NCBI GenBank assembly: GCA_030750665.1 | Contig: JASMHR010000004.1 | Location: forward strand, 1-46,207 | Reading direction: 5' to 3' | DNA: 46,207 nt | Origin: Candidatus Poseidoniaceae archaeon | GTDB lineage: Archaea; Thermoplasmatota; Poseidoniia; Poseidoniales; Poseidoniaceae | Shown: positions 10,568 to 46,207 of the stretch, in pieces | Numbering within the stretch: the first letter of the stretch is position 1 | Layout: each line of letters opens with the position of its first letter | The notes under the pieces: generated by a model | The model's database searches: none | What the model was told of the DNA's origin: nothing | What the model saw: the letters and a program-made list of their open reading frames with translations, nothing else | Translations under genes and position numbers: made by a program

Positions 10568-13500
10568 ATGTTCCCGCGCTTCAGTGACGCAAACGGTCAA
10601 CGGAAATGCATGTTTCTAGTCTCTTTGATGGTCATGTTCTCGATGGCTCCAATATTGACTTCACCCTTGGTATCATCCCATGGAAACAGTTCAATCACCA
10701 GTTGGCCGCTCAACGGTTCGAACGATACCGGCTGGATAACACTCGATGCTGTTGGAGGCAATCCCGACACTGGAATCAGCGCCTATACCGATTTGGTTCT
10801 CGAGTTCCCTCCAGGTGCTGAATTGTCCAATGTCAGCCTCGGCATCAGAGCCGATGGTGCCTCTGGACTTGCGATTGACGAACCTCGATTATTTGGTTTG
10901 GACAACAATGAGAATCTGCTTGATTGGAATGGGTGGGGTTCATTTGGAAAGGCTGATCAATTCGCTGGTAATAATCCACATATCTCTCGATTAGCACCAT
11001 TCAGCGACAATGGAGCATCTTGGGAACTACCCGCTGGCGCCACCGTCACTGACCTCATCTTTGAGACATTGGCACCTTTGGACCCTGTTGTTTCCTTCAC
11101 ACCATACTCTCTTGATATCTCAAGGACTGCGATACATCCTGAGGATGGACGCATGTTCATGGCCATTTCAGATATTATTCTGCAGATAGATGCAAATGCT
11201 GACCCACTCGTGATTGATGTTCTTGACCTCAAGGGCGCCGATGAGATATTTGATCTCGATATTGATCTGGTCAATGACCGCCTCATCGTAGTCACCAGAG
11301 ACATGGGGCTGCACACTTTCTCTCTCTCCAATAGTGCAGATCTAGGCCAAATGCCGCAGAGTCCTGTTCCAGATGATGCAATTACGCAGATATTGGTTGA
11401 TGGTGCCAATATCTACGCTGCCAGCCCTGAGGGTTTCTTCAGCCTCAACAGTGCTGGTACTGGTTGGACCATGGAAAGAATGTCTGATACCAGCAACTGG
11501 CCATCAGGAGTACCGGCTAGTATGCTGAAAATAGGTACGACTCTATTCGTAAGCATCTGGGATGGAGGAATCGCTCGGTGGGACCTTTTCAACGGCCAAC
11601 CATTGCCCGTATGGAATACGGCAAACGATCTGCAGAGTGACACCATCCACATTCTCCATGATACAGGTACTCAACTCCTGATGGGCTCGCCCGATCAAGG
11701 AGTAGCCAGATTCAATCATCAAAGCAATTTCTGGATGGCTACTTGGAACGATGGTAACTGGTTATCGACGAATAATATCGCTGGAATTGTGGAGATGTCA
11801 GGAAATATTGGAATTCTGACAGACCAATCCTTGCATTTGTACGATACCTCAGTCGGTTCATTCAGTAGCACTCTCTCAATCTCCTCGCTCGGGCTTCCCA
11901 GAGAGGGGCTCAATCTCATACACTGGCCTTCAGGAGGGCAAAGAGCACCTGCGGCCGACCAGATGATGGTCAGCGATGGCAGTGGTAGGTTGGCTGTTAT
12001 TGAGCCATCAAGCAGCCCTATGCAGCAGAGTGACATCATAATTGCAAGTGGACCCAGTGGCTATTCAATGCAAGATGTGATTCAGGTTGGAAATATAGTA
12101 TGGGTTGCAGTCGATGAATATGTAGACCGCTTCGATACAAGTTCTCAGTTGTGGCTGGATCCAGTGAACATTGGCTCAGATACAATGGCTCTTGCACATG
12201 ATAGCAATCAGGTTTACGTTGGAACAAAAGATAGTGGAGTGGTTGCTCTGGATATCAACAATGCATCATTCATCACAAATTGGAATGCAAGTCTAAACGT
12301 TCCCTTGAATGGTAATCTCAACGATGACGTTGTCAATTCTCTGGCTACAGATGGCGATTGGTTGGTGGTAGGTCACCCCGATGGTGGAGCATCTGTCATC
12401 GATCTTTCCACCAGTAGTGTCGAACAGACATGGGGCAGCGATAACGGCCTTGAGAATGATCGGGTCAACGATGTTGCCATCCTCGATGGCATTGCATATC
12501 TTGCATTGGATGAAGGAGGAATTGAACGTGTCGAATTGATCAATGCCAGCAGACTCACTCCATGGCGTTCAACAGGTGTTGACTCTGTTCAGGAAGCCCC
12601 GATTGCTGTTGCAGGAAACATCCTGCATATCGGTCTCTATGGTTATGGTGTAGTCAGAAAGAATCTACAAACTGGAGAATTCCTTGATACTTGGTTTGGT
12701 GGGAGAAATGGAATGCCAAGTTCCAATGTTCACGCACTTCATGCTGATTCAAATGGAAATATATGGCTTGGAACACAAGAAGGCGCCAAAGTTTGGGATG
12801 GTCAGAATTTCAATAATCTAAATACTGGGAATAATGTACCTGGATCACCAAATCCAACTGTCTACTATGATTTCGATTCAGATTCCACCAGAGCATACGC
12901 CGCTACAAACGCAGGAATATGTGCTTTCTTTCTCTCCAGCAGGAACCTTGACCGGTGCTGGGACAGTGGAGATGACATGGTTTCCAATTGGATGAAATCT
13001 GTTAAAGTGAATGGAAATAATCTATTCGGTGGTTCATGGTATGGTGCTAACCTCATCGACCTTAGTACAGAAGAAGTCGTGCAAAGTTGGGAAGCCGGAG
13101 AACAGACTGGGAACGCGGTGACTGTGGTCATCGGAGATATTGCATACATTGCACTCAGGAACATGGGTATTGCTCGGTTCGACCTGACAACAAATTCTTG
13201 GTTAACGATGTGGGAAAGTGGTTCTGGTGGATTACTGGATACTGACATTGTCACCAGCATGGCTGCCGATCGCAACCCAAACCGGATATGGATTGGTGGA
13301 GATGATGGTTTCCAGTGCCTTGATTGGGTCAACGAAACAGAAGAAATTGACATTGAGAAGAGTTCTAGTGCTTTCAGTGGAAATGGAGACCCAATAGAAA
13401 TCGTCATCGAAGGTAATGTCATGTATTATTCGACATACTACTACTATGGTGATAACGTCCATAGGATAAATCTGGACACTATCACTGCACTTTCCAGTCT

Positions 13501-16500
13501 AGACGCTGGACAACGCGCTGGACTCAGTGGATATGTGCATGGCATTGGTATGGTTGGAGACTATCTGAACATCGGTGTCGGCCCAAACTGGAACGGAAAT
13601 TCTGAAGGTGCAGTTGTTCGTTGGAACACCAGTTCCTCAAGTTGGGGACCTGACTGGGAAGTCACCGGCTCCGTAGAAAGAGTCGAGATGTATCTTTCAT
13701 CCAGTGGAGACACCTGGGTTGCTTGGGGTTCTGTATTTCTAAGGCGCTATGATAGCAGTGGCCTTGTAACTGGAGAATGGGATGATTCAGATATTGAATT
13801 CCCTGTCAGAGAAATTCTCGAGTTTGATGGTGAATTACTATTCGCCACAGGCGATGGAATCGAAAGATATGATGAAGTCAATGGACAATGGTTGAGCACT
13901 TGGACACCTGGTAGTGGAATGCCTTCTGCAGCAGCGGACATGATCATGGACATCCATGTCGACGGCACCGACCTTTGGGTTGGAACTTCAGATACTAACT
14001 GGTGGGGCAACCCTCAGAACCCAACTATCTTGAAATTGGATAACACTGGGAACTGGGATGACTGGGGTGGAGGCAGTAATGGTATCTCAAATGGTTTCCC
14101 AATCTCGTTTGCTCGTTGTGATGACTATGTGCATGTAGCGATGTCCAACAACCAAAATGGGGGGGTTGCGCGTTACAATGTGAATACTGGTCAATGGAAC
14201 TCATGGACCCAAAGTGGAGGTTCTCTTGCTGATGATTCTCCTTCTGCAGTTACCTGCGATAATCAAGATACACTATACATTGGTTATTTCAACCCTGACC
14301 AAGGTATTGACAGGTATAGTTACTCACAATCGAAATTTATTCGTCAGATAGATGAAAGCAAAAATGGCATCTCTGGGGACAGTGTCTGGTGGGATTCCAT
14401 GGCATGGTCAAATGGTGTTTTGGTGATTGGGCACGAATCCGGTACAAGCGGTCAAGGAGGAAATACTGTTATACAATATGGTGGATTTTCAATGCTGGCT
14501 GCTTCTGGGAACAATGCTGGCCAAGCAAGCGTCATGTCAATTGGCACTGCGGTCACTTCTTTCTTCAGTGATGGTGGTGATTGGCTGATTGGACAAGCAG
14601 GTGCCGATAGTGGTTACTCGCATGTCGATCGGTTCAATTACCAACTGGGACTTAACACTGAATTTGACCTCCCTGGACTGATGAATGGAAATGTTGTGGA
14701 ATTCACTTCCAATTCTACTCATGTCTGGGTTGTGACTGGAACCTCGCAAGGATTGGGCAGCGGAGTCCTCCAAGGCTTGATTCTCCCAAATGAAAGTGTA
14801 GAATGGGAATTCGGCTGGAGTGGTCAAGGTGGAGAGGTAGAAGAGATCGTCTATCACAATGGATATGTCTGGGCCTCTGTCAATGGCAGAGGAATTGCAA
14901 GATTGGACCCTAGCAATGGTCGAGCCATGTGGATGCCGCAAGGGTTGCACAGCGTGGTTGATGGCCTAGTCATTAATGGAGATGATTTGGTTGTCGGACT
15001 CCAAGGAACATGGTACTCCGGACCCGGAGTGAGTATTCTCAACACTACTCAGCAACAATGGACTGGGGGGCGGCTGATTTCAGGTCTGCCCAGCAATATC
15101 GTCAATGATTTCCTTATCGATGGTTCGATTGCATACATAGCCACTGAAGGAGGAATAGGGCGATGGAACCTGAGCAGTGAAGAATGGGAGGACTCTCTAA
15201 CCAGTCTTGATGGCCTACCAACCAACAATATCTATTCACTGAACCTCTGGCAATCCACTTCATCAGGTACAGTAAGTGAAAGTACTCTCTATATCGGAAC
15301 TTCGGGCGGTCTTGCTCGATTTGATTTATTGGCTGGTTCTGCATTATCCACTATGACGCTGGCACACGGGCTGATTGGAACCAAGAGTGGAGCTGCTGAA
15401 CTTTGGAGTGCCAACAGTGGCTCAACCCCAAATTTGTTTGTTGCCCATGATGGTTCAGGTTCCACTCGCCCCGGAGTCTCTGAAATCAGTCTGAATGGGA
15501 ATGATTCCGTAGTGGATATTCATCGTATCGACCAGTTACCAAGCAACAATGTGTTTGCATTAGCAAGCGATTGGTGGGGCCTTCACATCGCCACTAACAA
15601 GGAACCATTGGTGCATTGGAATCTGACAACAAGAGAATTCGAAGATGGGGCCACATCATGGCAGACGATAGGTTGGCCTGTTAGAGGAATGAATAGTGAC
15701 GGCACTAATCTGATTGCAACAACTCCGATGGGATTCACCCGCATCGATGCCAGCGGAAATGGACATTATGTGTTGGACACTGAGATATTACAAGGTGCAA
15801 CAAATGGATTCATCAGTTCTTCAGGAATATGGGTGACCACAAACAACGGAGATGGATTGTTTGGATGGGGGCCTGCTCCATCTTTCACTAAATACGAACA
15901 GTTCACCATGAGAAGAGCGGCGCCCCTGAGTGCCTCCTTCCTCTCTACTTCAATGAATGTGACTGACAAGACTCATCCTGGAATGACCATTACTCTGGTC
16001 GATTCCAGCAACCCGCAATCAGTTCCAAGTGTTGGTGGAAATTCTGGCCCTGGAGGCATCAAGATGTTGTTGATGCCCCTGATTCTATCTTCGCCCACTG
16101 CAGGAGCAGCAACCTATGCCATTAGTCACGGACTGAATTACAGTGGGACATGGTGGTTGAATGAATCCGACTCTGGACTTGATGATAAATTACAGAGAAT
16201 TGTTGATGGTGGTAAATTGCTCAATGGAAGTAGATTCGTCACCCTCCGATTACAGAGTCCGAACAATGGCTCTATGGATATCAAACTCTCATATGATTGG
16301 CTTCGAACCGATAGCCCAGTCGAGATTACCGACCTGTATGATAGACCAAATGACGGTGGTTCAACACTGACTGCAAATTGGAGTCTAGTGCATGATGTCG
16401 ATTTCGCAAGATACCTGCTATTCCTCAATGAAGGCCCATGGGCAACCCCTCCAATGAAGTCTGATTTGACTGCTCTAACACCCGATGCTTCGATCAGCAT

Positions 16501-18904
16501 TCATAGCAGGACCTCGACAGATATAGTCACTGCTGGCGGTTCACCATTGATTGATGGTGTCGAATACTGGGGCGTTGTGGTTGTCGAATATTCCGATGGT
16601 CGCTGGGGTGCCGTTAGTCAACCATTTGGATCTGCTACTTCCAGTGATGAGATACCTGCCTCACCTGAATGGGTGGAGGCTGGACCGAATGAAGGTGGAG
16701 AACGTGGCGAATTATTTGTTGAATGGAAGAGATGCGATGCATTGGATCTTGCTGGAACCAATCTCTATCACAGTTCTACAGCCATCACAGATGTTGTTGG
16801 GATGACTGAATCATCATCGGTGCCAACAACTCAAGGAAACTCAACCATCATAGATCTTGAAGCAGGAATACCATATTGGATTGGTTTGACCTGCTATGAT
16901 GAGGCAGGACAAGAAGACCAGATGAATGCCACTATTATTGGCCCAGTGGTTCCTACTGGTGGGATAAATGACGGCATTCCTCCATCCAGAATCGAGGGTG
17001 TCTGGGCAGATGATGTGCCTGATGATGAGGGTGGGCGAATAGAAGTAGGTTGGATTCCATCAACTGCCGATGATTGTGCTTTCTATACCATTTACATCAT
17101 GGAATTGAATGTCGATATTCCAGTCAACGAAGATGGTGTTCCATCCAATGTCGTTGATTTCCTGGTTTCTCAAGTGGTCACTGATTGTGCTCAGAATTCT
17201 ACCATCATCTCAGAAATTGATGGAATGCCCCTTGTTGATGGTAGAGCGTATTGGATTGCTGTTGTCGCTTCAGATGATTGGTTGAATGAAGACTTGGGTA
17301 ATGTCAATATTGTTGAAGCAACTCCGCTGAGGAATCTGATCAACGTCAATATCGCCCCTGAACGCATTGATACACTGAACGCGTGGGATCTTCCTGATGA
17401 CGATGGAACCGCCATTGAAGTCCTATGGGAGCCAGATGTATCAGATGATTTCGATTATTATGTCGTATGGGCATCTAACTCAGATATCACTGACTTGACC
17501 ATTTCTGATGCGCTATACAACCCCGATTACTCGATGTGTGGATGCCGGAAGGTGTCAAATCAGAAGAATGGCGATTCGGGTGAAGCACTGACAGTGGTCA
17601 TGCACAATGCGAGATATGATGGCTATGAACAGGGCATCATTCCTGATGTGGAATTGAATGTAGCAGTCACAGTTTATGATATCAAAGGTAATGTCCATCT
17701 CGATGGATTGAACACCGTCTCAGTGACTCCCATCAACAACAGCCTCGATGAAACTGCTCCTGAGCGACTTGATCTTATTCTCCTTTCAGATTATAGCGGC
17801 GATGCTGGAGACAAATTGGTACTTGACTTCGATCTTTCTGATGCCAGCGATGTGGATGAATATCATGTCTACGCAGCGACATGGGACTTCGAGGGTGAAG
17901 TCGGAATTGGGCAAAAAGGCCCTGATAATTACATCATGAAACTCGATAGAAATCCAACCCTTCCTCTTGTTATCAATGAGTTGTTCGATGATCCGCTCAT
18001 CCCTGGACAGACTGTCTATGTAACCGTCGTAGTGGTGGACACCAATGGAAATGCACACATGACCGGCCTGACCATGGCAGCAGCAGCCCCAATGGATGAT
18101 CTTGGAGATGACCCCGGCTCACACCTGCCAACCATTGCAGACCTCAATGTCGAATGGGTATCAGCAGGAAGTAGAATTCTTGTTTCGTGGAGCCCAACAG
18201 GTGATGCAGTGGTCCAATCGTTCAAGATATACATCTCCGATGAACAATTCGATAATGTGGAGGATGCAGTTCTGGTCGATACTGTATTCGCTTCGAACTC
18301 ATTATTCATCTCAACTGACAACCATGAAAGTCTGGACAATGAAACCACTTGGTGGGTTGGAGTTTCGGCTTCAGAATGCGGAGAAGGTTGGCCAGATTGC
18401 CCCATATACCGCAGGGCAATCACCCCTCTCCATCTCTCAGCACCTAGTAGCAGCGGTTCAACAGAGAGTGATGCAACTAGTGCAAAAGACGACTTCAGTC
18501 TATCCGATTACGCTACTCCACAGAATATGCTTGCAGCAGCCTTGGGTATTGCAATACTGTTGTTGTTGTTCGTGATGATACGAGACAAGAAACCGAGGAA
18601 AGGAAAGAGCCATTGGGACCTAGAATCCACGTGGGGAATCGATATACAACCGCGTAATGATTGGGATGATGACTTCGATGTTCTTTCAACGCCGAAATCA
18701 GAAATGACAACTGGCATCATGTCGGCTGCTCAGAACATTGAGCAACAAAGAGGTGCTATCCCAATGCCCGATATGGGGGCACAAGTCCCTATACAGAATC
18801 AATCAGTCTCAAATCTCAGTGGACTGACCGATGACCTACTCGATGAACCCGGCAAGAAGAGTGGAAGTAGCATCGATACCTCCTTCCTCGATGACCTGTT
18901 GTGA
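10568..18904 (+). CDS. Giant secreted/surface multi-beta-propeller protein with FN3-like C-terminal region, single TM and cytoplasmic tail
   Basis: 2778 aa; N-terminal hydrophobic signal, dozens of propeller-like blades (e.g. SSNVHALHADSNGNIWLGTQEGAKVWDG, DDVVNSLATDGDWLVVGHPDGGASVID), FN3-like repeats near the C-terminus, TM NMLAAALGIAILLLLFVMIRDKK, tail ending TDDLLDEPGKKSGSSIDTSFLDDLL. Confidence 0.9.
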   Translation: MFPRFSDANGQRKCMFLVSLMVMFSMAPILTSPLVSSHGNSSITSWPLNGSNDTGWITLDAVGGNPDTGISAYTDLVLEFPPGAELSNVSLGIRADGASGLAIDEPRLFGLDNNENLLDWNGWGSFGKADQFAGNNPHISRLAPFSDNGASWELPAGATVTDLIFETLAPLDPVVSFTPYSLDISRTAIHPEDGRMFMAISDIILQIDANADPLVIDVLDLKGADEIFDLDIDLVNDRLIVVTRDMGLHTFSLSNSADLGQMPQSPVPDDAITQILVDGANIYAASPEGFFSLNSAGTGWTMERMSDTSNWPSGVPASMLKIGTTLFVSIWDGGIARWDLFNGQPLPVWNTANDLQSDTIHILHDTGTQLLMGSPDQGVARFNHQSNFWMATWNDGNWLSTNNIAGIVEMSGNIGILTDQSLHLYDTSVGSFSSTLSISSLGLPREGLNLIHWPSGGQRAPAADQMMVSDGSGRLAVIEPSSSPMQQSDIIIASGPSGYSMQDVIQVGNIVWVAVDEYVDRFDTSSQLWLDPVNIGSDTMALAHDSNQVYVGTKDSGVVALDINNASFITNWNASLNVPLNGNLNDDVVNSLATDGDWLVVGHPDGGASVIDLSTSSVEQTWGSDNGLENDRVNDVAILDGIAYLALDEGGIERVELINASRLTPWRSTGVDSVQEAPIAVAGNILHIGLYGYGVVRKNLQTGEFLDTWFGGRNGMPSSNVHALHADSNGNIWLGTQEGAKVWDGQNFNNLNTGNNVPGSPNPTVYYDFDSDSTRAYAATNAGICAFFLSSRNLDRCWDSGDDMVSNWMKSVKVNGNNLFGGSWYGANLIDLSTEEVVQSWEAGEQTGNAVTVVIGDIAYIALRNMGIARFDLTTNSWLTMWESGSGGLLDTDIVTSMAADRNPNRIWIGGDDGFQCLDWVNETEEIDIEKSSSAFSGNGDPIEIVIEGNVMYYSTYYYYGDNVHRINLDTITALSSLDAGQRAGLSGYVHGIGMVGDYLNIGVGPNWNGNSEGAVVRWNTSSSSWGPDWEVTGSVERVEMYLSSSGDTWVAWGSVFLRRYDSSGLVTGEWDDSDIEFPVREILEFDGELLFATGDGIERYDEVNGQWLSTWTPGSGMPSAAADMIMDIHVDGTDLWVGTSDTNWWGNPQNPTILKLDNTGNWDDWGGGSNGISNGFPISFARCDDYVHVAMSNNQNGGVARYNVNTGQWNSWTQSGGSLADDSPSAVTCDNQDTLYIGYFNPDQGIDRYSYSQSKFIRQIDESKNGISGDSVWWDSMAWSNGVLVIGHESGTSGQGGNTVIQYGGFSMLAASGNNAGQASVMSIGTAVTSFFSDGGDWLIGQAGADSGYSHVDRFNYQLGLNTEFDLPGLMNGNVVEFTSNSTHVWVVTGTSQGLGSGVLQGLILPNESVEWEFGWSGQGGEVEEIVYHNGYVWASVNGRGIARLDPSNGRAMWMPQGLHSVVDGLVINGDDLVVGLQGTWYSGPGVSILNTTQQQWTGGRLISGLPSNIVNDFLIDGSIAYIATEGGIGRWNLSSEEWEDSLTSLDGLPTNNIYSLNLWQSTSSGTVSESTLYIGTSGGLARFDLLAGSALSTMTLAHGLIGTKSGAAELWSANSGSTPNLFVAHDGSGSTRPGVSEISLNGNDSVVDIHRIDQLPSNNVFALASDWWGLHIATNKEPLVHWNLTTREFEDGATSWQTIGWPVRGMNSDGTNLIATTPMGFTRIDASGNGHYVLDTEILQGATNGFISSSGIWVTTNNGDGLFGWGPAPSFTKYEQFTMRRAAPLSASFLSTSMNVTDKTHPGMTITLVDSSNPQSVPSVGGNSGPGGIKMLLMPLILSSPTAGAATYAISHGLNYSGTWWLNESDSGLDDKLQRIVDGGKLLNGSRFVTLRLQSPNNGSMDIKLSYDWLRTDSPVEITDLYDRPNDGGSTLTANWSLVHDVDFARYLLFLNEGPWATPPMKSDLTALTPDASISIHSRTSTDIVTAGGSPLIDGVEYWGVVVVEYSDGRWGAVSQPFGSATSSDEIPASPEWVEAGPNEGGERGELFVEWKRCDALDLAGTNLYHSSTAITDVVGMTESSSVPTTQGNSTIIDLEAGIPYWIGLTCYDEAGQEDQMNATIIGPVVPTGGINDGIPPSRIEGVWADDVPDDEGGRIEVGWIPSTADDCAFYTIYIMELNVDIPVNEDGVPSNVVDFLVSQVVTDCAQNSTIISEIDGMPLVDGRAYWIAVVASDDWLNEDLGNVNIVEATPLRNLINVNIAPERIDTLNAWDLPDDDGTAIEVLWEPDVSDDFDYYVVWASNSDITDLTISDALYNPDYSMCGCRKVSNQKNGDSGEALTVVMHNARYDGYEQGIIPDVELNVAVTVYDIKGNVHLDGLNTVSVTPINNSLDETAPERLDLILLSDYSGDAGDKLVLDFDLSDASDVDEYHVYAATWDFEGEVGIGQKGPDNYIMKLDRNPTLPLVINELFDDPLIPGQTVYVTVVVVDTNGNAHMTGLTMAAAAPMDDLGDDPGSHLPTIADLNVEWVSAGSRILVSWSPTGDAVVQSFKIYISDEQFDNVEDAVLVDTVFASNSLFISTDNHESLDNETTWWVGVSASECGEGWPDCPIYRRAITPLHLSAPSSSGSTESDATSAKDDFSLSDYATPQNMLAAALGIAILLLLFVMIRDKKPRKGKSHWDLESTWGIDIQPRNDWDDDFDVLSTPKSEMTTGIMSAAQNIEQQRGAIPMPDMGAQVPIQNQSVSNLSGLTDDLLDEPGKKSGSSIDTSFLDDLL

Positions 18905-22434: not shown

Positions 22435-23739
22435 TCAAGTCTTGGCGTGAATCTTGATGACATCACCATCTGACAATTCATGCTCTGCCCCGATAACTCT
22501 CTTGCTCTTGCCATCGATTGCTTTGATGAATCCATCTCCAAGGTCGCTATGAACCGCATATGCAAGTTCCTTTACGGTTGAATCATCTGGTACGACAAGT
22601 GCATCAGGTAGGATTCTGCCGTCGCCATCTGTCCAATGTGTTTCGTCTTGAACTGGATATGTAACGATATGAGCGAGGGATTCATGAAGAACCCGTGATA
22701 TCAATATTGAGACACCAGTTCCGCCAAATCCATCCATTGTCACCTTCATCTTTTCAAGTGCTTCAATCTGAACTGACTTGAGGCGCTGTTGTCCTTGTTC
22801 AGTAAACTCGAAATCAATTTCTCCGGGCCCATATTCAATGAAACCCATGGTGGCGGCTCTTCGTAATCCTAATTCTGCATCAGCCATTGTTGGCATCAAT
22901 ATCGCCCCCTCCTCCGCAAGTCTACTTTGCAGAACCTTCCATGATTCGCCTGGAGCAAGTTCGGCCTTGTTAGCAGCCACGTGAATTGGAAACATAGCGC
23001 GACGAAGTTGCTTTGCGAGGGCTCTTTTCAAACCAATACCCCAATCCCATGGCTGATCACTTGCATCTTCATTCTCTCGGAATGCTTCTAATGCAAATTT
23101 CACCTGCTGCGATGTGGCTCCCAACCCACTGAGTTTCTCATGCAGAAATGTGACCATTCCCTTATCACCTTCAGCCTGCGTTCTTCGGGCTCCTCTCAAC
23201 CAACCATCTGCGATGATCCCATGAATCCAAGCACTCAATTCCTCAACCAGAAACTCGTGTTCTTCCATTATCGAATCCTGACATGCTTGAAGATCTTCGT
23301 TGACCCCGATAGGGTTGCCCTCGATATCTGTGGTTCCAGCAGCATCGACCACCTGAATCAAAGCATCACAACGAGCGAGGTCCGAAAGAAATTCATTCCC
23401 CCGCCCGCGACCACTATGAGCACCCGGAACAAGCCCTGCCACATCGACCATGAAAACTGGAACAAGGCGCTTATGAGCAATACATGAACCTGTACGTGGT
23501 TGACATATGCTGCCTTTTCTCTCATCGATTTCTAAAACTGGTTCCAAGCGACCTTCCGCCTCTTTGGTTATTCTCAAATCGCTACATGGACAGGGTAGTG
23601 GGGCAGGCAGAAATGCAACTCCAACATTCGGCTCGATGGTACAGAATGGGTAATTGGCGATTGCCACTTTCGATTGAGTAGCCGCAGAGAAGAATGTCGA
23701 TTTGCCCACATTGGGCTTACCCACCAATCCGATACGCAT
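22435..23739 (-). CDS. Archaeal Obg/YchF-like GTPase with C-terminal TGS-like domain
   Basis: MRIGLVGKPNVGKSTFFSAATQ, ANYPFCTIEPNVGV, VDVAGLVPGAHSGRGRGNEFLSDLARCDALIQVVD, C-terminal ELSDGDVIKIHAKT. Confidence 0.93.
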   Translation of the reverse strand: MRIGLVGKPNVGKSTFFSAATQSKVAIANYPFCTIEPNVGVAFLPAPLPCPCSDLRITKEAEGRLEPVLEIDERKGSICQPRTGSCIAHKRLVPVFMVDVAGLVPGAHSGRGRGNEFLSDLARCDALIQVVDAAGTTDIEGNPIGVNEDLQACQDSIMEEHEFLVEELSAWIHGIIADGWLRGARRTQAEGDKGMVTFLHEKLSGLGATSQQVKFALEAFRENEDASDQPWDWGIGLKRALAKQLRRAMFPIHVAANKAELAPGESWKVLQSRLAEEGAILMPTMADAELGLRRAATMGFIEYGPGEIDFEFTEQGQQRLKSVQIEALEKMKVTMDGFGGTGVSILISRVLHESLAHIVTYPVQDETHWTDGDGRILPDALVVPDDSTVKELAYAVHSDLGDGFIKAIDGKSKRVIGAEHELSDGDVIKIHAKT

Positions 23740-23833: not shown

Positions 23834-25984
23834 CTAGAGTAAGCGTGCGATGATGTCACTCTTGGTGCCACTTGATGAAACACCTCGCTCGTCAGCCAGA
23901 GAAACCAGTTCCGCCTTCTTCATCTTGTTGAGTTCTCCTCCGTCGAGCGATTCTGAGGTTTCTTCCCCACCATCGTTGCTGAATTCCTTGGAAAGTGAAT
24001 TCATTATCTTCAGCATGTGGATATCCAATTCAGGGATGTTGACCTTTCCATCACCATCGAGATCCATTGCTGATACCATCTTCTCAACATCCCATGGAGG
24101 CAGGTCAGCGATATCAAGAGAGGCCAAGCCTTCTCGTATCTCGAATGGGGAAATTAGTCCATCACTATTTAGATCCATCTTCATGAATAAATCGATAGTG
24201 GTCGTTCCAGTTTCATGCAACCAGCGAGCAAGGTCTACAAGTTCTGACTGGAAGGAAGAAAGTGGGTCGACTGGGGCCGCCTCAGGTACTGGCATTACCA
24301 CGCCATCATCTGTATGAAGTGCTGCTGATACTCCGACATCTGTAGAACTCGGCTCTTCAGTTTCTTCTTCAGGGGCTGAAACTACGATTTCTGTGTCGAC
24401 TCCAACTCCTCTGGAAACGAGGTTCCTGATACTGGTGGTTCCAGAATGTAAGTGGAAGGAGTCCATGCCTACGCTGGCTGGTGCCTCATCCTCCTCTACC
24501 TCATCGGAGAATAGAGTCGCAACCATATTGATAGAACCGATGAAGGTAGCGATAACAACACCGTAGAATAAAGCAGCAGAAGTAAGATAGTAACCGCCTA
24601 GATGACTACTGGCATCTTCAACACCAGCATCACTCAGGGTATTGGAAGCGAAATTCGCCATCAATAGAGCCACAGTGGAGCCAATACCACCCAACAACAT
24701 CAACCAGAAAGCCCATCGAGCCTTGGAAAGACTGGATAGCCGACGGCCGACAACTTCTGGAAACAGGCTGCCCCAGATAGCCAAGGCGACCAAGCCGCCA
24801 ACGGTCCACAATATTCCATGATCAACTGTACTCTGAACACCGCCCATATTGTGCGAACCATTCAGAGCATCGAGAGCGGAAAAGAACCCAAATAGCGCAA
24901 AAATTGGCAGCAGAAGAGTTGCACTTGCTGATGTAACACCACCTGGATTTGCAACAACCATTTCCCAACGTCCCTGCATTGTGGATATCAGATTTGAAGA
25001 AGCTGCCAGCAGAGGAATCAATCCAACCACTGTCAATACCGCAGTGAATGTCAGCATTACATCTCCTGAAACCGCAGTTTCCGACATCCCTAGTACTGGA
25101 ACACTGGCGAAGACAAGTGAATAGGAAATCAAAGTCAAGGAACGACTCCATATTGGTGCACCACTGACTTTAGGAATCACGTGATATAGAACTGCCAAGA
25201 ACATCGCTAGAGGGAACCAGCCAAACACTACTCTGTCAGCAAACCAAGCGAGGTCTGCAAGTTCCATCTCTGAAGCAAGGTCGCCGCTGATGAGCAGATT
25301 GCATGTGCGGATCAACAAGGCCCAAAACATCGATAGATGAGCCATGATGATGAACCATGATGAAACCTGAATCGGGGAATCTCCTCTTCCACCAAGAGCA
25401 AGTAAATGGTTGAGGAGCAAAGCACCTATCATACCGGCATATGCCAGTTCAATCACTGCATGGAACATATCAGTGAAATCGATGAACATTGGAAGTATCA
25501 TCGAAGCCAAAGTCAGTCCGAACCAACCAAATGCTACCAGAGAAGCATTCGCCTCACTACCTAATCCCCCACCATTAGCACGGGCATTGATATGAAGACC
25601 TGCTCCAATCAAAGTCATACCAAGGAAACCCCAGATGAGGCTTTGTTCTGCCAATCTGTCCATAACAGCAGCGTCATAACTCCATCCAATACCGGATAAC
25701 GAGTCAAGGGCCTTGGCATCATAACTAAGCCAAATTGAAAGGAATGTCACTGTAGAAGCGATAGTTGCCCATATCGCTCCAAACAATAACCAATTCTTGG
25801 CTCCGGCCCCTTTCTCTTTGGAGAACATATCGATTACTCCAGCAGGGGCCTTATCCAACAGGAATACTGATAATTGGCGCAATGGGCGACGCAACTCTCC
25901 TAATCCGTTGTTTGCCCAATGGGCAGTCAACAGCATCGCTAATATCAGCAAAATAAGTTCAGGAAGTAGAATTGAAAACATCAT
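23834..25984 (-). CDS. Heme-copper oxidase subunit I-like polytopic membrane protein, apparently ligand-degenerate, with C-terminal EF-hand pair and SAP-like motif
   Basis: About 12 hydrophobic helices; VLYHVIPKVSGAPIWSRSL and STVDHGILWTVGGLVALAIWGSLFPEVVGRRL resemble HCO subunit I segments; EF loops DLNSDGLISPFE and DLDGDGKVNIPE; tail LNKMKKAELVSLADERGVSSSGTKSDIIARLL. Confidence 0.65.
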   Translation of the reverse strand: MMFSILLPELILLILAMLLTAHWANNGLGELRRPLRQLSVFLLDKAPAGVIDMFSKEKGAGAKNWLLFGAIWATIASTVTFLSIWLSYDAKALDSLSGIGWSYDAAVMDRLAEQSLIWGFLGMTLIGAGLHINARANGGGLGSEANASLVAFGWFGLTLASMILPMFIDFTDMFHAVIELAYAGMIGALLLNHLLALGGRGDSPIQVSSWFIIMAHLSMFWALLIRTCNLLISGDLASEMELADLAWFADRVVFGWFPLAMFLAVLYHVIPKVSGAPIWSRSLTLISYSLVFASVPVLGMSETAVSGDVMLTFTAVLTVVGLIPLLAASSNLISTMQGRWEMVVANPGGVTSASATLLLPIFALFGFFSALDALNGSHNMGGVQSTVDHGILWTVGGLVALAIWGSLFPEVVGRRLSSLSKARWAFWLMLLGGIGSTVALLMANFASNTLSDAGVEDASSHLGGYYLTSAALFYGVVIATFIGSINMVATLFSDEVEEDEAPASVGMDSFHLHSGTTSIRNLVSRGVGVDTEIVVSAPEEETEEPSSTDVGVSAALHTDDGVVMPVPEAAPVDPLSSFQSELVDLARWLHETGTTTIDLFMKMDLNSDGLISPFEIREGLASLDIADLPPWDVEKMVSAMDLDGDGKVNIPELDIHMLKIMNSLSKEFSNDGGEETSESLDGGELNKMKKAELVSLADERGVSSSGTKSDIIARLL

Positions 25985-25990
25985 ATCACC

Positions 25991-26263
25991 TCAGTCCCGG
26001 AAAACCTCTCCTAATAGATTCAAGACCAGAAAGGCAAACCCAAGAATGATTCCTATGAGATAATACCAGATTCCACTCGACCCCAATGCATCGAAAAGAG
26101 GTATCATCTCAGAAAGAAGCGGGAAGCCATCCCATCCGAAAATTACTGAAAACATTCCGACTAAACCAAGCACTCCAAGGCCTAGTAATGCCATCACAAT
26201 TCGACTCGCCTCTGGCTCAGCAATGCCTTGTGTCACTTCGGGTAGATTTTCGGCGGCAGTCAT
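25991..26263 (-). CDS. Small two-TM membrane protein, probably co-transcribed with the downstream HCO-like gene
   Basis: 90 aa, two hydrophobic helices, 6-bp gap to the downstream gene. Confidence 0.6.
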   Translation of the reverse strand: MTAAENLPEVTQGIAEPEASRIVMALLGLGVLGLVGMFSVIFGWDGFPLLSEMIPLFDALGSSGIWYYLIGIILGFAFLVLNLLGEVFRD

Positions 26264-26367: not shown

Positions 26368-27534
26368 TCATGGTGAACGCAGATTCAATAGGATATCTCC
26401 GCGCCTTGCAATTCCAGTACCAAGAACTGCTGGAAATGAGGTATCAATCTTCACCTCATTCATCCATATCCTCTTACAGTCACAATCCAATCCCTCAAAC
26501 TCCAGAAGGTCTCCGCTGACAGAATATCGCTCAATAGCTGCAACCACATGTTTGTCACAAGAGCCGCAGTTATGAGATCCTCTTACCCTTCCACCTGCTG
26601 TAGGGTGGATGATGAGTCGAGAAACTTGATCGTCGCCCCCATTAATACCCCCTTCGGGGTGAATGAGTGGATGTGCTCTTTCAATCAATGATACCAATGA
26701 CCACAACCATGGAGGGCGATATTCTCTCGCTCTGAACAGTCGATCGATAATCGTGCCTCGTTGAATATTCATTGGGTTGACAGATATCTCATCACTCTGT
26801 TCAGCAACAGCAGTTATCCATTTTACACATTGTTCCAGTGAATCGCCTTCACTCATGAATGGTGGTTTGAACATGAGATAAGTCTTGACTCTTAGACCTG
26901 CACTCTGGAGATTTGAAACGGCTCGGTTCCAGGAATTCACTGTGAATCCTTTGTTGATATGAAAACGTAGAACTTCGTCATCATATGCTTCAAGACCTAT
27001 CGCTACTGTGAAATCTGGGTTGATTGAAGCGGCCCATTCTAATTTCTCTTCATTACATTGTTCAGTTCTACTTTCAATAATCAGATGTTTTCCCATTTCA
27101 TGACATTCGCGCAACACTGTTTCTTGAAAATCAACAGGTATCTCACGGTCCTCCAATAATGAGCCTGAGGTGTATACCTTGATCATTCCCATATCCTTGA
27201 AACCGGATAACTTCTGCTTGGAGTATTCCCATTGTGCATGCAAGTCTTCACTTTCGACATCGTCTCTAGTGTCATTGAAATATCCACAGAATGTACAACC
27301 ACTGCTCCACCACCAATGACACCCTTTGGTACGAAGAATAACTGTCGCTGCAGTTGTATGTGTCCCGTCCGGCATCATCTCCGGAGTGTGATAGACTGTT
27401 GCTGGCTCAGTTGCATCCCAGGAATTTTTCTTCTCTTGAGCCCATTCTGTATTCTCGGGTGCCTTGATCATATCATGAAGACGAACTGCAGAACTGCTGT
27501 CGCCGACAAGATTCAATCTCTGAGCATCGGACAT
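26368..27534 (-). CDS. Archaeosine biosynthesis radical SAM protein (RaSEA-like)
   Basis: RTKGCHWWWSSGCTFCGYFND cluster motif with long first spacing; KVYTSGSLLEDREIP; IIESRTEQCNEEKLEW; AIGLEAYDDEVL. Confidence 0.85.
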   Translation of the reverse strand: MSDAQRLNLVGDSSSAVRLHDMIKAPENTEWAQEKKNSWDATEPATVYHTPEMMPDGTHTTAATVILRTKGCHWWWSSGCTFCGYFNDTRDDVESEDLHAQWEYSKQKLSGFKDMGMIKVYTSGSLLEDREIPVDFQETVLRECHEMGKHLIIESRTEQCNEEKLEWAASINPDFTVAIGLEAYDDEVLRFHINKGFTVNSWNRAVSNLQSAGLRVKTYLMFKPPFMSEGDSLEQCVKWITAVAEQSDEISVNPMNIQRGTIIDRLFRAREYRPPWLWSLVSLIERAHPLIHPEGGINGGDDQVSRLIIHPTAGGRVRGSHNCGSCDKHVVAAIERYSVSGDLLEFEGLDCDCKRIWMNEVKIDTSFPAVLGTGIARRGDILLNLRSP

Positions 27535-45910: not shown

Positions 45911-46094
45911 TCACACTGCCGAAACATCGCTTCGCAGATGTGACTTGGATCTGATGAAATTCAACTCCGGTGTCCTGTTCAAGATTGGTGCCAGCCACAA
46001 AGCGAAGGTGACATTACCCAAAGCATGTAGAATATCGTAAGACAATCCAGTAAACAGATATTGAAAGTAAGTGGAGAAGGAAGCCCCACCATGG
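45911..46094 (-). CDS. 3' fragment of an ECF-transporter S-component-like membrane protein (5' part missing)
   Basis: Reverse strand reads GGASFSTYFQYLFTGLSYDILHALGNVTFALWLAPILNRTPELNFIRSKSHLRSDVSAV*; stop lies 4 bp before the Pth2 copy 2 start. Confidence 0.5.
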
Positions 46095-46097
46095 AAG

Positions 46098-46207
46098 ATG
46101 TATAACGAAACCCTCGGTCAGATTCACGCCGTGTTAATGTTTGTGATGTTTAACCTTACATTCTTAGTCATGTTCTACCCTGGGACCCTCGGAATGAACC
46201 GGCGCGT
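46098..46207 (+). CDS. Fragment of cytochrome c oxidase (heme-copper oxidase) subunit I, truncated at both sides
   Basis: MYNETLGQIHAVLMFVMFNLTFLVMFYPGTLGMNRR, matching the well-known subunit I segment MYNExLGKIHFWLxFIGFNLTFFPMHFLGLxGMPRR. Confidence 0.7.
   Translation, partial: MYNETLGQIHAVLMFVMFNLTFLVMFYPGTLGMNRR

Follow-up and report, generated by a model that had tools for sequence, protein, structure and literature searches.

Which role is left to a heme-copper oxidase (HCO) subunit I-like protein that has lost its metal ligands and ends in a pair of EF-hands and a SAP motif? The question is raised by contig JASMHR010000004.1 of Candidatus Poseidoniaceae archaeon. The window, by which we mean the whole stretch of 46,207 nucleotides that was analysed, contains at positions 23834-25984 of the minus strand an intact open reading frame of 716 amino acids (aa) with an ATG start, organized as follows.

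23834-25984, minus strand: CcoN-derived ligandless membrane protein with an EF-hand pair and SAP tail, 716 aa
24512-25984, minus strand: membrane core, residues 1-491, 12 HCO-type helices and one extra N-terminal helix
24380-24439, minus strand: motif TSIRxLxxxGxGxDT, about residues 516-535, C-terminal of the last helix, predicted cytoplasmic
23969-24265, minus strand: EF-hand pair module, residues 574-672
24140-24175, minus strand: EF-hand loop 1, D604-E615, DLNSDGLISPFE, canonical
24029-24064, minus strand: EF-hand loop 2, D641-E652, DLDGDGKVNIPE, canonical
23837-23932, minus strand: SAP motif (Pfam SAP), residues 685-716, optional in the family

The tail is well defined. Scores for the 716-aa protein exceed the Pfam cut-offs for EF-hand_5 (33.3 bits versus 25.9) and EF-hand_1 (32.0 versus 25.4) and the curated Pfam cut-off for SAP (28.0 versus 23.9), and the EF-hand region consists of paired helix-loop-helix elements with canonical 12-residue DxDxDG...E loops. 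The initial annotation of this locus had located both loops and the SAP-like end correctly. Between the membrane core and the tail, the TSIRxLxxxGxGxDT motif is conserved order-wide, with R520, G526, D530 and T531 each present in at least 90% of 50 sequences.

The origin of the membrane core is less evident from single-protein searches. PF00115 (COX1) barely reaches its cut-off (34.9 bits versus 34.8), and the NCBIfam ccoN model (TIGR00780) matches residues 96-442 with E=3.8e-8 but falls far under its family cut-off. A profile of the membrane part, built from 50 homologues, recovers five CcoN chains by hmmsearch with E-values from 1.5e-12 to 7.7e-10 (9g6b, 1.5e-12; 3mk7, 1.1e-11), followed only by NorB at 0.02, and hhalign of the family against bacterial CcoN gives E=3.3e-18. 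We obtained AlphaFold2 models of the 716-aa protein (pLDDT 82 over the whole protein) and of one homologue from Thalassarchaeaceae (pLDDT 83.5). For both models, one per archaeal family, the best Foldseek matches in the PDB are CcoN chains (E=1e-11 and target TM-scores of 0.79-0.84 for the 716-aa protein), revealing the 12-helix fold of HCO subunit I in both families. These matches rule out an unrelated fold and bear out the oxidase scaffold that had been proposed for this gene. Residues W210, W247, S280, P324, N331, T335, W427 and G432 are retained from CcoN, and the Lys/Arg bias of the loops agrees with HCO topology, which would place the C-terminal tail, including the EF loops, on the cytoplasmic side. 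We conclude that the protein descends from CcoN and retains the oxidase helix bundle.

In CcoN, we take H60 and H349 to be the heme b ligands, H347 to be the heme b3 ligand, and H207, H257 and H258 to be the CuB ligands, with the active-site tyrosine cross-linked to a histidine. Two alignment methods agree on where these columns fall in the oxidase-like family.

25649-25651, minus strand: codon of A112, CcoN heme b H60 column; His in 0/50
25232-25234, minus strand: codon of R251, CcoN CuB H207 column; R in 18, H in 11 and K in 7 of 50
25100-25102, minus strand: codon of V295, CcoN active-site Tyr column; V/I/L in 46/50, Tyr in none
25079-25084, minus strand: codons of S301 and E302, CcoN CuB H257/H258 columns
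24818-24826, minus strand: codons of V387-D388-H389, CcoN H347 (b3) and H349 (b) columns

All three CuB ligands, the b3 ligand and one b ligand are therefore lost in the 716-aa protein. The CuB histidine reported missing by the initial annotation is indeed replaced, by R251 at the H207 column, and its wider impression that apparently no metal ligand remains agrees with A112, R251, S301, E302 and V387, the exception being H389 in the second heme b column. Among the 50 sequences, the V387 column never contains histidine and the H389 column does so in 11; over all six columns, 27 sequences have no ligand histidine and 23 have exactly one. The six histidines of heme-copper oxidases are thus reduced to at most one per sequence, and the cross-linked active-site tyrosine is found in none of the 50, while the CcoN controls show histidine at each ligand column covered. 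Ligands at shifted positions were considered as well: only 1/50 sequences has a histidine no more than 4 columns away from four of the ligand sites, and none does so for more sites. We reject this reading because no His, Cys or Met column of the membrane core reaches 90% across the order (50 sequences). Judged by these columns, the protein would bind neither heme nor copper at the established sites, and it may well contain no cofactor at all.

To place the gene among its relatives, family names were read from the c-ring motif of ATP synthase, which is LPESxxI in this genome, with I or L elsewhere in family f1, and LPETIxL in sampled members of f2. PMC6336850 gives the same motifs as hallmarks of MGIIa and MGIIb, respectively, so f1 is taken to be Poseidoniaceae and f2 to be Thalassarchaeaceae. 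The relatives divide between these two families within a single order, and the host is a Poseidoniales (Marine Group II) archaeon, most likely a member of Poseidoniaceae. A whole-protein search matches 59/59 relatives, two of them by the EF module alone, and the membrane profile matches 248/289 sampled genomes of class Poseidoniia, counts that argue against a chance gene. The family occurs in both Poseidoniales families. In the phylum sample outside these two, the membrane profile found nothing except one marginal 67-position match, and all six genomes of a third family of the class were negative; the 4 unmatched genomes among the 38 best are apparently three of this third family and one of Poseidoniaceae. 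A scan of genome contigs with the single protein returned two close relatives only, and one close-relative query found no viral copies. For the nearest pair, dN is 0.042 and dS 0.70 in the membrane part (dN/dS about 0.06), and dN is 0.019 and dS 0.65 in the EF module (about 0.03), which rules out a pseudogene. The gene is retained under purifying selection in nearly all members of the order, whose archaea are abundant in the ocean. CcoO (PF02433) is absent from 59/59 genomes in a search that detected its positive controls, and no ccoN above the family cut-off occurs in 246 phylum genomes; membership in a cbb3 operon is therefore rejected. In sum, the most cautious reading is that a cofactor-free CcoN descendant is maintained by selection in Poseidoniales.

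We note several further genes seen during this survey. One Thalassarchaeaceae genome encodes an unusual extra HCO-like protein of 558 aa (L140, 397-2070, G044:C12; PF00115 E=5e-38). Some genomes have a second COX1 (L147, 2075-4255; also G034 and G041); in L147 the COX1 part comes after an N-terminal domain that has a CxCH motif and a membrane helix. The contig studied here closes with a fragment, 46068-46205 on the plus strand, that resembles a short COX1 C-terminus (PF00115 positions 372-409), the rest of the gene being absent; a misjoin at the contig end or a second COX1 may account for it. The same contig encodes, at 10568-18904 on the plus strand, a predicted secreted protein of 2778 aa in which beta-propeller-like repeats, fibronectin-like domains and a membrane anchor near the C-terminus are recognizable by eye.

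The immediate neighbourhood of the oxidase-like gene is conserved.

25991-26263, minus strand: 90-aa protein with two predicted membrane helices, 6 nt upstream of the oxidase-like gene
26368-27534, minus strand: RaSEA, archaeosine radical SAM protein, conserved upstream neighbour
22435-23739, minus strand: YchF/YGR210-like GTPase, conserved downstream neighbour in 40/41 loci

The 90-aa two-helix gene accompanies the oxidase-like gene in 41/41 loci from both families, mostly at a spacing of 0-14 nt or overlapping with it. Its product has an invariant EP and an invariant Gly, and searches of Pfam and the PDB returned nothing useful for it. It is the best candidate for a partner of the oxidase-like protein, and a probable one; RaSEA and the GTPase are probably unrelated to this system.

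The tail divides the two archaeal families. The survey of relatives that had been suggested for the fusion finds the EF-hand pair in 30/50 proteins, by architecture all 30 from Poseidoniaceae and 0/20 from Thalassarchaeaceae, and almost all oxidase-like tails examined have two canonical loops. SAP, counted at E up to 0.01, occurs in 16/50 members, including two Thalassarchaeaceae proteins that lack EF-hands, and one family member has helix-hairpin-helix motifs in its place. Since the 20/20 Thalassarchaeaceae orthologues occupy the same operon position and have no EF-hands, the ligandless core is either older than the tail or independent of calcium. The calcium-responsive sensor envisaged by the initial annotation therefore stands as far as its oxidase scaffold is concerned and falls as the basic role of the family; in Poseidoniaceae, calcium responsiveness is plausible from the canonical loops, and the EF-hand tail may bind calcium. 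As separate observations, the EF-hand module is tandemly duplicated in oxidase-like proteins of genus g2 (L006, L007), and SAP motifs end or sit in other Poseidoniales proteins (L138, L137, L139), including a ribosomal-protein-S3Ae-like protein and a secreted-type protein of 2342 aa.

Related EF modules also occur in other proteins of Poseidoniaceae. They are inserted in ATP synthase subunit I (AtpI; L133, 480-2885, and L135) and in NuoL (L134, L196), fused to a NuoJ-like protein (L191, L192, L201; assigned by PF00499 at E=1e-5, under its cut-off), and found on an EF-PAS-UbiA prenyltransferase (L197). A second strong EF match is of NuoL type in 21/23 genomes of genus g9 and of AtpI type in about 24/30 genomes of genus g11; these counts were judged mostly by frame length, the NuoL/AtpI identity having been read off directly for G020, G013, G015 and G029 and from overlapping positions for G022, G027 and G033. 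A tree of the modules places the AtpI, g9 NuoL and g1 620-aa copies among the oxidase tails, and the NuoJ copies as well, for which long branches call for caution; the UbiA and f2 NuoL copies sit on long or doubtful branches. A Thalassarchaeaceae genome (G050; L193, 543-3170) has a NuoL with an EF-hand insertion in the same loop, possibly an independent event. More distant copies of the module occur in zinc-ribbon and WD40-type proteins. The module is promiscuous: we reject it as proof of a respiratory role, and its presence in zinc-ribbon, WD40-type and 620-aa non-respiratory proteins makes its sharing weak evidence for one. In the literature searched, EF-hand pairs in respiratory or energy proteins of Poseidoniaceae are apparently undescribed.

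Our tentative reading, to which we assign a probability of roughly 0.45, is that the cofactor-free pseudo-oxidase and the 90-aa protein form a structural or regulatory subunit of the energy machinery, with calcium-dependent docking or tuning in Poseidoniaceae. The pseudo-oxidase and its two-helix partner would hold or tune, for example, a respiratory complex throughout Poseidoniales, presumably in physical association with it, and in Poseidoniaceae the cytoplasmic EF-hand pair would make this docking or tuning dependent on calcium. Counting against this reading, the nearest conserved genes (archaeosine synthase and GTPase) are non-respiratory, Thalassarchaeaceae have no tail, and the NuoL and AtpI copies are confined to some genera. 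A broader version appears improbable: respiration of Poseidoniaceae would be under the control of cytoplasmic calcium, with the ligandless subunit as the hub of a respiratory assembly and with EF modules on it, NuoL, the NuoJ-like protein and AtpI coupling or tuning the complexes.

Among the alternatives, the one that survives best, while still unlikely, is an ion channel, or a carrier, that uses the oxidase bundle as its frame; protons, ions or a hydrophobic solute would pass through its cavity and former proton path, with calcium as the gate in Poseidoniaceae. Going by the sequence, nothing occupies the heme sites; the EF module is under strong constraint, and two residues of a core helix, N331 and T335, hardly vary either in the oxidase-like family or in CcoN. 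These two residues may be just structural, however, and conserved charged residues are few inside the helices; the conserved neighbours include no transporter.

Somewhat harder to sustain is a role in assembling or chaperoning the canonical cytochrome oxidase, in which the protein might hold apo-subunits or supply heme or copper. A PF00115 match is found in 57/59 genomes and a canonical COX1 in nearly all, and a ligandless COX1-like protein of Acetobacter, reported in a cluster with CtaB, is proposed to stabilize CtaB (PMC10715153). Against this, the conserved neighbours at 41 loci are neither COX nor heme genes, and the metal-binding residues that a copper or heme carrier would need are not conserved.

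A redox protein whose heme or other cofactor sits outside the classical positions is less credible again. Five histidine columns of Thalassarchaeaceae (88, 94, 131, 166 and 483), all different from the ligand columns, are filled in 15-18/20 sequences, and H389 of the 716-aa protein stays in a heme b ligand column. The paired heme b column (A112) is never histidine, however, no histidine column is conserved order-wide, and none reaches 70% in Poseidoniaceae. Lastly, relaxed selection on an oxidase gene in decay, as the loss of all catalytic residues could suggest, can hardly be reconciled with purifying selection, near-universal retention and an operon structure kept across two families.

Returning to the structural or regulatory subunit, the near-universal presence of a cofactor-free oxidase subunit together with a small linked partner suggests that the membrane machinery of Poseidoniales has a component not yet described. 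The recurrence of the EF module on subunits of complex I and ATP synthase offers a testable hint of calcium control in archaeal energy conversion.

How does this system compare with known ones? CcoN is the closest family by sequence profile and structure, sharing the fold, the helix order and several structural residues. In contrast to CcoN, the 716-aa protein is without the CuB ligands, the b3 ligand, one b ligand and the active-site tyrosine, and its system encodes no CcoO, has another partner gene and has added an EF-hand/SAP tail. By description, the loss of metal ligands resembles that of the 'deranged' COX1-like protein of Acetobacter, which has been retained with all metal-binding residues gone and is proposed to be structural (PMC10715153); a retained ligandless COX1-like protein is therefore not a new category. 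Unlike the Acetobacter gene, the Poseidoniales gene is not linked to CtaB, its conserved neighbours being RaSEA, the 90-aa protein and the GTPase, and the consulted portion of that report (PMC10715153) describes neither an EF-hand tail nor order-wide retention. Halobacterial fam02696, according to excerpts of PMC9258230, is a distant homologue of HCO subunit I that adjoins genuine oxidase or NorB genes; by description, both families are archaeal, lineage-specific and distantly related to HCO subunit I. The same excerpts (PMC9258230) list, in broad terms, lineage-specific calcium-binding-domain families in both Poseidoniales families (modules 135 and 45), with fusions to oxidase, complex I or ATP synthase going unmentioned there, and our literature searches found no EF-hand-linked heme-copper oxidase. 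As far as these searches show, the order-wide retention, the CcoN origin, the partner gene and the EF/SAP tails are new.
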